NCBI RefSeq assembly: GCF_020532825.1
Contig: NZ_MQTS01000241.1
Span: 1 to 35,436 of the forward strand
Source of the DNA: Arthrobacter sp. SO3
Lineage (GTDB): Bacteria > Actinomycetota > Actinomycetes > Actinomycetales > Micrococcaceae
Reading direction: 5' to 3'
DNA: 35,436 nt
Of the stretch, positions 1-3,750 are shown piece after piece. Each line of letters starts with the position of its first letter. Position 1 is the first letter of the stretch. The notes beneath the pieces are model-generated. The model did not search any database, was not told the DNA's origin, and saw only the letters and a list, made by a program, of their open reading frames with translations. Made by a program: the position numbers and the translations under genes.

Positions 1-117
1 GCCCGGTGGACATGCCCTCCCCTGAGGTGCACCACCCACCGCGCCCAGTGGACATGCCCTCCCCTGGCCTGCACCACCCACCGCGCCCAGTGGACATGCC
101 CTCCCCTGGCCTGCACC
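1..117. repeat. 42-bp tandem repeat, about 2.8 copies
   Basis: Two full units (1-42 and 43-84) and a partial third (85-117) follow each other with no spacer. They differ at only a few bases (for example ctgaggt against ctggcct in the middle). Each unit carries one GGACATGCCC 10-mer, at 8-17, 50-59 and 92-101, exactly 42 bp apart. The array may continue beyond the left edge of the window. It is directly followed by further, non-tandem copies of the same 10-mer, so it seems to be a locally amplified part of the palindrome cluster next to the DUF559 gene. It is not a CRISPR because there are no unique spacers. Confidence 0.85.
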
Positions 118-270
118 GATGGACATAGAGCGACTATGTCCATCGGCGGCCAGATGCGCGGGGCATGTCCCTGAAGTCCAGGAGGCGGACGGTGGGCATG
201 TCCAGCGGAGGCTGTGAACGTCGGACATTCCCCGCGGCCGACAGGCCGTCTCGGGAGGGTATGCCCAGTG
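116..270. repeat. Cluster of GGRCATGYCC-type palindromes downstream of the DUF559 gene
   Basis: After the tandem array comes a perfect inverted repeat with 12-bp arms, CCGATGGACATA (116-127) and TATGTCCATCGG (135-146), around a 7-nt loop. Then come GGGCATGTCC at 161-170 and 194-203, GGACATTCCC at 223-232 and GGGTATGCCC at 257-266, the last only 4 bp from the DUF559 stop codon (271-273). GGGCATGTCC is the reverse complement of GGACATGCCC, so copies in 1-101 and copies in 161-203 face opposite ways around the hairpin. A matching cluster lies on the other side of the gene. Confidence 0.8.
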
Positions 271-1080
271 CTAGGCGGCAACAGAGAGCTCGTCCAGGGC
301 CTCGCGGACCATGGCGATGAACTCCTCGGGCCGGTTCAGGAGCATGGAATAGCTGACGACAAGGGTCGGGATGCCCCGCCGGGTTGTCACGTTCCACCGC
401 CGCCGGTCCTCCTCAAAGCTCGCCCGGTCCATATGGAAGCCTGCACCGTCCGTCTCAATGCCGAGCCTGCCGTCAACCATGAGGTCAATGTGGCCCATTC
501 CGGGGATGTTGACTTGGGACTCCACCTGGAAACCGGCCCTCCGCAGCCAGTACCGGGCCATGCACTCGATGATGGACTGCGATTGCGGCACGATCCTGGC
601 CGCCGTCCGGCGCGCCCTCATATCATTGCGGCCGGACAGCCGCTGCCGCAGGGCCGAGAGTGACAGGCTCTTGAGGACGACGGCGGATTCAGCAATCACC
701 AGGCCGTCGAGTTCCGGCAGGCATCGCAGACTTTGTACAACGGTGTCCAGCAGGGTGGGCGGTGCCGCGGACCGGTGGCACATGAAGCCTGGATAGCTGC
801 GGCTGTGCGGGACGGCAATGTGGGGCTGCCCGGGCGGTTCCAGTACCCAGAGGCCTTGGAACTGCGCCGCCGTGGCACATGCTGGCTCCGCGGGCAGCGA
901 CCGGATGGCAATGAGCCGAGCATCGGCGCCGGGGACAGCGTAGACGCCGCGGGCCACCCGGGAAACCGCCCCCGAGGCCAGGGCGGACTTGAGTTGAAAG
1001 TCCGAGACGCCCGCGGCAGCGAGGTGTTTGGCGCGAGCGACGCCGTCGTAGTTGGAAAGCACTTCGGGGAGATTGACCAT
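271..1080 (-). CDS. AbiEi-like N-terminal domain plus DUF559 nuclease-fold protein
   Basis: The 269-residue protein starts at MVNLPEVLSN (ATG, 1078-1080). The frame stays open for 57 more codons upstream, but that stretch is low-complexity and lies in the repeat cluster, so I do not use it. Residues 1-60 (GVARAKHLAAAGVSDFQL, then RVARGVYAVPG) resemble the winged-helix domain of AbiEi-type proteins, found in many actinobacterial genes. Residues 165-265 match DUF559, a Vsr-like PD-(D/E)XK fold: E172, D199 in GHIDL, E209-x-D211-G, H216 and D225 are in the expected order, so the putative active site appears intact. No partner AbiEii toxin is adjacent. Family members are often annotated as endonuclease-domain or antitoxin-like proteins and their function is mostly unknown. 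Clusters of near-palindromic 10-mers flank the gene on both sides, which suggests a DNA-binding relationship, but this is inference. Confidence 0.8.
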   Translation of the reverse strand: MVNLPEVLSNYDGVARAKHLAAAGVSDFQLKSALASGAVSRVARGVYAVPGADARLIAIRSLPAEPACATAAQFQGLWVLEPPGQPHIAVPHSRSYPGFMCHRSAAPPTLLDTVVQSLRCLPELDGLVIAESAVVLKSLSLSALRQRLSGRNDMRARRTAARIVPQSQSIIECMARYWLRRAGFQVESQVNIPGMGHIDLMVDGRLGIETDGAGFHMDRASFEEDRRRWNVTTRRGIPTLVVSYSMLLNRPEEFIAMVREALDELSVAA

Positions 1081-1141
1081 GCGGACATCGTGGCGCCGGA
1101 GGCTCAGTCTGGAACAGGGCCCCGCCCCGCTATGTGCAAAA

Positions 1142-1403
1142 GGACATGCCAGGCGGAACGGCGGCTGGGAGGACACGGTCCGCGTCCGGGATTTCTCTGG
1201 CCCGCTGTGGGCAAAGCGCCTGTGCCCGGGCGGAGTGCGAAAGATGGACATGTCCGCGGCTGCGGGCGGAACGGGAAGGGGCTTGTCCCCCGCAGGGTGC
1301 AGCGGATGGACATAGTGCCGTTATGCCCACCCGCGGCCTCCAAGAATGGGCATGTCCCCCGGGATGGGGTGGGAGTGCCCGCGGGGTGTCAGCGGGCATA
1401 CCT
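1142..1403. repeat. Second GGRCATGYCC palindrome cluster, upstream of the DUF559 gene
   Basis: The gap between the DUF559 start and the next gene holds GGACATGCC (1142-1150), the perfect palindrome GGACATGTCC (1246-1255), a degenerate GGGCTTGTCC (1279-1288), an inverted repeat TGGACATA (1307-1314) / TATGCCCA (1322-1329) with a 7-nt loop, GGGCATGTCC (1348-1357) and GGGCATACC (1394-1402). The hairpin has the same loop length and nearly the same arms as the one at 116-146 on the other side of the gene. I see no convincing gene in 1081-1411. Confidence 0.8.

Positions 1404-1821: not shown

Positions 1822-3750
<1,929 letters not shown>

Follow-up and report, generated by a model that had tools for sequence, protein, structure and literature searches.

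The window analyzed here is a 35,436-bp contig (NZ_MQTS01000241.1, our contig C159) of the 4.75-Mb genome of Arthrobacter sp. SO3. Close to one end it carries a gene for a putative nuclease, which joins an AbiEi-like region to an EDxHD/Vsr-type domain and lies between two arrays of the short palindrome GGRCATGYCC. Judged from comparative sequence data, the gene and the palindromes very probably belong to one partnered system (probability roughly 0.9). The best reading is a repeat system that would resemble the repetitive extragenic palindromes (REPs) and would be served by a dedicated nuclease unrelated to the REP-associated tyrosine transposases (RAYTs). The relevant features of the window are as follows.

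271 to 1080, minus strand: gene of the AbiEi-EDxHD nuclease (P0002), 269 amino acids, characterized by Pfam, an AlphaFold model and the ratio of nonsynonymous to synonymous substitution rates (dN/dS).
589 to 1080, minus strand: residues 1 to 164, winged helix and second domain, AbiEi antitoxin fold (6y8q_A).
280 to 576, minus strand: residues 169 to 267, EDxHD/Vsr-type nuclease domain (E172, D199, H216, D225).
1 to 266, no strand: stop-side palindrome array, with exact copies at 8, 50, 92, 161 and 194 and one-mismatch copies at 223 and 257.
120 to 142, no strand: stop-side central hairpin, TGGACATA..TATGTCCA, flanked by outer sites at 92 and 161 (spacing, 69 bp).
1142 to 1402, no strand: start-side palindrome array, with exact copies at 1246 and 1348, one-mismatch copies at 1142 and 1279 and a degenerate half-site at about 1394.
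1308 to 1328, no strand: central hairpin of the start-side unit, GGACATA..TATGCCC.
1822 to 3750, minus strand: typA/bipA (Pfam), a conserved neighbor that marks the fixed locus and lies outside the system.

All seven exact copies of GGRCATGYCC in the window fall inside 1 to 266 or 1142 to 1402, on either side of the gene. When one mismatch is allowed, 18 copies are found (7 in the stop-side array, 4 in the start-side array and 7 elsewhere), compared to an expectation of 9.25 (standard deviation, 3.17), and none of 100 shuffled sequences reached 18. An earlier first-pass annotation of this DNA had counted about nine and about seven copies in the two arrays, which is generous unless one also counts the paired half-sites in the central hairpins (121 to 141 and 1308 to 1328). 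Its remark that the motif is absent from the rest of the window holds for exact copies and fails at one mismatch. The close fit of the arrays to the gene was described accurately: 4 bp separate the stop codon (271 to 273) from the last site (257 to 266), and about 60 bp lie between the likely start and the first upstream site at 1142. The open frame of the gene runs on to 1251; the start was placed at the ATG at 1080 because the methionine there is invariant among five aligned close sequences and most distant homologues start to match close to it. The region from 1 to 1500 has no Rfam match at the gathering score, which speaks against a known RNA family. Copies of the element were also seen at contig ends, namely, at window position 1 and in contigs C51, C89, C133 and C177 of the source genome (G000). 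Since several copies end contigs, the repeats probably break the assembly of this genome, and the window may contain only part of the stop-side array.

The source genome holds 207 exact GGRCATGYCC sites, compared to 18 for the reversed-pattern control, a genome-wide spread that rules out an operator confined to one gene. A search with the cluster at 1 to 270 gave 23 matches in this genome among the best 40 of 59 candidates, including itself and several overlapping ones. The recurring unit consists of GGACATGCCC, then TGGACATA-N6-7-TATGTCCA and then GGGCATGTCC, with the outer sites commonly 69 bp apart and the starts of the half-sites separated by 29 bp on either side of the unit center. Among distinct, deduplicated pairs of neighboring sites less than 150 bp apart, the 69-bp spacing accounts for 18 of 40 pairs in the source genome, followed by 32 bp with 6; at orthologous loci, 69, 29 and 32 bp account for 45, 34 and 23 of 210 pairs, respectively. 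Across units the sites are near-invariant, and the spacers are diverged and mostly unpaired: at most spacer positions, mirror-position pairing is seen in no more than half of the units, and this poor pairing rules out a long fold-back hairpin. One copy at a contig end (L006) forms a near-perfect palindrome, which may be an assembly artifact. In the arrays beside the orthologous gene, identity averages 0.93 and 0.97 in site columns and 0.71 and 0.76 in spacers (two alignments of nine and seven sequences, respectively).

A simple codon-usage gene call at 13 loci, chosen for their likeness to the window's array, placed 13 of 14 multi-site clusters of the source genome between genes. For the nine clusters with both neighbors called, three lie between convergent, five between codirectional and one between divergent genes. 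The first-pass annotation had taken clusters lying equally often away from such nuclease genes as a sign against the link; clusters of this kind are common, yet REPs behave likewise, and the expectation needs rewording.

The same annotation had suggested looking for co-occurrence of gene and palindromes, at different loci, in related Arthrobacter genomes. In a family sample of 295 genomes, 7 of the 24 genomes of the genus carry a close orthologue (67 to 100% identity, the window's own included). GGRCATGYCC sites number 118 to 242 in six of these seven genomes and 67 in the seventh (G106), with 43 to 79 in the other 17. The central hairpin was then counted in 206 genomes of the genus. At least four hairpins are present in 45 of the 50 genomes with a close gene (E ≤ 1e-98; median, 14), compared to 7 of the 156 remaining genomes. 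The latter comprise 26 genomes with a homologue of 47 to 55% identity (median, 0; at least four in none) and 130 genomes with no match at E ≤ 1e-60 (median, 1; at least four in 7). A background of one or two hairpins is partly due to a recurring 22-base match of another kind (e.g., G297 to G299). The difference has a Mann-Whitney P value of 1.5e-26, which ignores relatedness. Within the gene-bearing clade, a nested trio of genomes (G275, G473 and G344) has no gene beside typA and shows 0 to 1 hairpins.

At the level of single loci, 32 named close loci (Arthrobacter and Pseudarthrobacter, 59 to 93% identity), of 52 loci returned, were examined, and all 32 have GGRCATGYCC sites within 1 kb of the gene. 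Sites lie on both sides in 29 of them and on the stop side only in L208, L209 and L210; five further sites, at four loci, lie ahead of the likely start codon, within the matched frame. Beyond 1 kb from the gene, no site was found in these loci, which span 333 kb in all. In a second set of close loci, whose genomes overlap the named set, sites are present at 21/21 and on both sides at 19.

Most divergent homologues are accompanied by repeats of their own. The 47 to 55% clade likewise resides beside typA, and none of its 13 fetched loci contains GGRCATGYCC. The first-pass annotation had regarded orthologues at the same locus without palindromes as contrary evidence; this particular motif is indeed absent there, but all ten loci inspected, of the 13 fetched, carry a TGCGCA-based palindrome on both flanks. 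It is built of CTGCGCAGTGA and then a hairpin resembling TGCGCAGGGAC..GTCCCTGCGCA, is present on both gene sides and is degenerate in some loci. In genus g31, TCGATCCCA/TGGGAACGA arrays adjoin the gene in three genomes, and TGGGAATGTCTAGACATTCCCA or TGGGAATGTTCGAACATTCCCA adjoins it in two others. A search of 24 genomes for the first of these elements, as CGWTCCCA-N18-20-GGGAWCGA, found 19, 17 and 11 forward copies, on several contigs, in exactly the three genomes whose gene it flanks, 0 to 1 in 18 other g31 genomes and 0 in three genomes of the query genus. A second g31 palindrome has four copies in its genome, two beside the gene and two elsewhere.

The flanks of divergent homologues were also compared blindly for shared repeats. 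Among 47 homologues outside the GGACAT clade, 33 beat all 60 shuffles, compared to 7 of 98 control window pairs; the set includes one genome twice (L047 and L217) and several homologues that share a genome, and relatedness is uncorrected. The positives comprise 13 of 19 named homologues, 8 of 12 from the 47 to 55% clade, which again bears on the same-locus orthologues, and 12 of 16 others. Shared flank repeats were also scored for a homologue outside the family (L231, Demequina lignilytica), where two of five control windows score equally high by an earlier measure. Some genomes carry more than one homologue, with differing flank results: Arthrobacter subterraneus NP_1H has two (L212 and L214) and Arthrobacter sp. 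H5 has three (L213, L222 and L224). In the source genome itself, two paralogues (L002, 35% identity; L003, 33%) have no exact GGRCATGYCC site within 1.5 kb. L002 (G000:C176:3016-6795) has TCCGCGGAATCC once on either side, the two copies being in inverted orientation, and this is perhaps another protein-palindrome pair.

The predicted protein combines two parts. Pfam reports AbiEi_4 (PF13338) at 29.7 bits, over the cutoff of 25, and the Vsr-type MTES_1575 restriction endonuclease family (PF18741) below its cutoff. DUF559 (PF04480) is not reported by Pfam, and that label is based on the related sub-cutoff PF18741 match and on the fold. NCBIfam has no family for the four proteins queried, the AbiEi profiles of PADLOC match the N-terminal part, and 13 BFVD matches at E ≤ 0.001 are mainly to nucleases or unnamed proteins. 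An AlphaFold2 model built from 27 sequences has a mean predicted local distance difference test score of 91.1 and a predicted template modeling score of 0.86. The top Foldseek match of residues 1 to 164 is the Streptococcus agalactiae AbiEi antitoxin (6y8q_A; E, 3.9e-5), and VIA-align superposes 160 residues with a Z score of 7.4, which alone is weak in that range, and a root mean square deviation of 4.5. Residues 169 to 267 match the homing endonuclease I-Bth0305I (3r3p; Z, 12.4; root mean square deviation, 2.4; 96 residues), Vsr (1cw0; Z, 10.5) and, more weakly, TnsA (Z, 7.0). The catalytic residues are retained across 27 homologues (E172 in 27, D199 in 26, H216 in 25 and D225 in 27), as is E209 (in 27). 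E172, D199 and E209 were correctly named in the first-pass annotation, and its proposal of an intact Vsr-like nuclease fold agrees with these matches. With a dN/dS of 0.09 to 0.19 relative to five orthologues, the active site is intact and under purifying selection. The fold matches, the retained catalytic residues and the low dN/dS together suggest that the protein is a functional sequence-specific nuclease. In addition, C68 and C120, outside the nuclease domain, are invariant in 27/27 homologues and possibly form a structural or redox pair.

Copy-number changes of the units could be followed at one orthologous place. Over 60 kb of conserved synteny (40 kb in G443), there is a single multi-site cluster besides the gene's own, and it lies 42 to 48 kb along. 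In all six genomes of the subclade whose stretch reached this place, the cluster is present, with one unit in two genomes, two in one and four in three; by eye, the units are more alike within than between genomes. Matches to its flanks located the orthologous place in ten further genomes, including five with a close gene, and none has a site there. On both sides, the flanks of G388 and G393 can be aligned up to approximately 100 to 150 bp from the place; the near left flank is unaligned in seven of the ten, and the flanks in G457 are 2.2 kb apart. Units have therefore been gained or lost and locally amplified at this place, whichever enzyme is responsible.

The gene itself keeps its position. 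It is preceded by typA in 21/21 close loci and in 13/13 examined loci of the 47 to 55% clade, and in genus g31 it adjoins PaaZ-like and TetR genes at both loci scanned. At one named close locus, the other neighbors encode an SH3 protein, a ferredoxin, an aminotransferase and a citrate synthase. Ten neighboring open reading frames scanned at three loci include no toxin, methylase or defense family and no AbiEii nucleotidyltransferase toxin, with two frames matching no family, which speaks against a toxin-antitoxin operon. With up to 10 candidates scored per genome, each of the 50 close-gene genomes has one match at E ≤ 1e-60, and no gene copy at a new site was seen among the loci examined. Partial or decayed gene matches lie downstream of typA in L154, L253, L254, L259, L260 and L130 (G436, G340, G389, G379, G367 and G434, respectively), which suggests repeated gene loss. 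In the window, an inverted repeat at 1728 to 1783, just downstream of typA (20-nucleotide arms, 90% complementary, 16 nucleotides between them), is probably the typA terminator.

Sequence comparison shows the partnership, the anatomy of the element, its dispersal, the change in copy number at an orthologous site and a preserved active site under purifying selection. The mechanism proposed to unite them, including the cutting and copying of units, is in our judgment slightly better than an even bet. The protein would be a domesticated, vertically inherited, site-specific endonuclease, in which the AbiEi-type DNA-binding region would recognize short inverted repeats and the EDxHD (Vsr/I-Bth0305I-type) domain would cut. 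Its cognate repeats would be those on both gene flanks and those dispersed between genes as phased units of outer site, central inverted repeat and outer site. At least two protein copies, held at a fixed distance from each other, would occupy a single unit and cut inside it or nearby, and repair from another copy would multiply and move units, in a homing-like break-and-copy process acting in trans. Tandem arrays would grow by unequal repair, the gene would keep its locus, and each protein lineage would have a palindrome of its own, as in RAYT/REP systems. Binding, cutting and cutting as the cause of dispersal are thus predictions of this model. It is based on three precedents taken together: AbiEi-family proteins occupy multiple inverted repeats in the promoters of their own genes, and the S. 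agalactiae AbiEi bends DNA (PMC7319586); I-Bth0305I dimerizes on a DNA target almost 60 bp long (PMC3943268); and RAYTs, which are single-copy and largely congruent with species trees, adjoin their REPs (PMC3116915).

Several observations weigh against this reading. In the 47 to 55% clade, at least one forward match to the clade's own hairpin (up to two mismatches) is found in 24/26 genomes and at least two in 21/26, so dispersed copies are few; some gene-less genomes have 4 to 6, and the reversed control reaches four in one genome (G412). Because this hairpin is no commoner than in some gene-less genomes, dispersal is no constant consequence of the gene. In the blind test, the two flanks share no repeat exceeding the shuffles in 14 of the 47 divergent homologues. 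The spacers of dispersed units are diverged, which suggests that most dispersed copies are old. At the orthologous cluster, neither a target-site duplication could be read nor, owing to the strong divergence of the flanking intergenic DNA, an exact junction. A tree of typA DNA was built for 105 author-chosen genomes of the 206 (42 of the 50, 15 of the 26 and 48 of the 130), and the gene label changes nine times on it. Five independent pairs differ in the gene (two to three agree, none is opposed and the rest are equal) and eight differ in the element (three to four agree, none is opposed and the rest are equal). These phylogeny-corrected tests point in the expected direction, are underpowered and do not reach significance. 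Five genomes have a close gene and fewer than four hairpins (G208, 3; G424, 3; G363, 2; G333, 2; G106, 1), and seven have at least four hairpins without a close match (G436, 16; G431, 8; G444, 7; G430, 6; G304, 5; G366, 4; G385, 4). Among the latter, G430 and G431 are only 68% and 83% complete, and G436 retains a gene remnant (71% identity over residues 53 to 115), as if it had lost the gene recently. No explanation was found for G444, G304, G366 and G385.

The main rival, which we consider unlikely, is a protein that only binds. Its AbiEi part on the dispersed palindromes would act as a chromosome-wide regulator or architectural protein with autorepression via the flanking arrays, selection for this role would hold the sites in place, and the nuclease would act rarely or have some other task. 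Orthologous sites are indeed far more conserved than spacers, preferred spacings recur as a multiprotein complex would produce, and autorepression through multiple inverted repeats is known in the AbiEi family (PMC7319586). However, clusters seldom occupy the usual operator positions (one of nine between divergent genes), arrays also lie 3' of the stop codon, the catalytic residues are kept in 25 to 27 of 27 homologues, and the number of units varies at an orthologous place, all of which count against binding alone.

A restriction-like defense, in which the nuclease would attack incoming DNA and the palindromes would mark or protect self or serve as decoys, is much less probable. The PADLOC AbiEi matches and the origin of the Pfam family, whose Vsr-type restriction endonuclease was originally reported as part of a conflict-related HEPN fusion (PMC3710099), speak for such a role, but the scanned neighbor frames are free of toxins, methylases and defense families. 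Marginally weaker still is a transposon whose ends are the flanking palindromes, with gene and ends having moved recently and the dispersed copies being nonautonomous relatives. The two-sided flanking resembles transposon ends and TnsA is among the weaker fold matches, but the gene is fixed beside typA or, in g31, beside the PaaZ-like and TetR genes, with no copy at a new site. Least probable is a coincidence of shared ancestry, with an ordinary repeat spread by other machinery lying beside the gene in one clade: this would fit the clustering of the gene and element labels on the tree and the nonsignificant independent-pair test, but homologues in several other genera are flanked by different repeats, g31 provides a second matched dispersal, and the nested trio, with 0 to 1 hairpins, lacks the gene beside typA.

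If the break-and-copy reading is true, a domesticated homing endonuclease copies its binding site rather than its gene. A second, unrelated enzyme would then share the gene-and-palindrome layout, so that this arrangement would have arisen twice, and its requirements would be shown to be sequence-specific binding and strand cutting. A possible role for actinobacterial proteins in which an AbiEi domain is fused to a Vsr-type nuclease would follow as well, and the natural matched pairs of protein and palindrome could be used in recognition tests. More broadly, AbiEi-EDxHD proteins may be a second, nonhomologous class of REP-dispersing enzyme, with lineage-specific palindromes multiplied by cut-and-repair across the Micrococcaceae, a tentative generalization to which we give a little less than even odds.

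REP sequences are widespread in bacteria, and in the literature consulted RAYT is the enzyme family assigned to them as dedicated (PMC3733652, PMC3116915). Computed REPs have been tabulated in many bacteria, including Arthrobacter livingstonensis, in a report in which the terms RAYT, DUF559, endonuclease and transposase do not occur (PMC12306157). Literature on palindromic repeats with DUF559, AbiEi, RAYT or REP doublets forming hairpins (REPINs), Vsr and homing endonucleases does not describe the present system, within a scope that left out most subscription papers and preprints. A RAYT-driven REP was rejected because no Y1_Tnp (PF01797) protein was found in the 30 close-gene genomes searched, of 50; the control search was positive in 5 of 14 known genomes.

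Compared to known systems, the closest likeness is to the REP/REPIN and RAYT (TnpA-REP) "REPtrons," as the first-pass annotation had recognized: here too, a gene lies between clusters of dispersed extragenic palindromes, and the layout recurs in relatives with other palindromes. Shared features are a single-copy, largely vertical nuclease gene beside its palindrome and extragenic, dispersed palindromes in inverted pairs and clusters, with a repeat for each enzyme (PMC3116915, PMC3733652). Unlike RAYTs, which are Y1 HUH transposases, the enzyme is AbiEi-like and EDxHD/Vsr-type. The GTAG tetranucleotide at the REP hairpin foot is missing from this lineage's consensus (of 15 and of 54 units), and the unit comprises several short inverted sites at preferred spacings instead of one long hairpin. 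CGTC REPs, described as repeat families without a dedicated transposase (PMC3733652), differ in that a dedicated candidate enzyme adjoins the repeats here. With the AbiEi antitoxins of type IV toxin-antitoxin systems (S. agalactiae AbiEi, Rv2827c), the protein shares the N-terminal winged helix and second domain, as well as several inverted repeats beside its own gene, which AbiEi members bind (PMC7319586). It differs from them in its additional C-terminal nuclease and in repeats that flank both sides and extend genome-wide, and from AbiE in the lack of an AbiEii toxin in the scanned neighbor frames. Its catalytic fold and E-D-x-H-D residues are those of I-Bth0305I, which has a long DNA target (PMC3943268), but it is free-standing at a fixed chromosomal locus, is not seen moving its own gene and is tied to dispersed palindromes. 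The layout is thus the known one of the REP systems, and what appears to be new is the RAYT-unrelated enzyme, the GTAG-less consensus and the unit of spaced short inverted sites.

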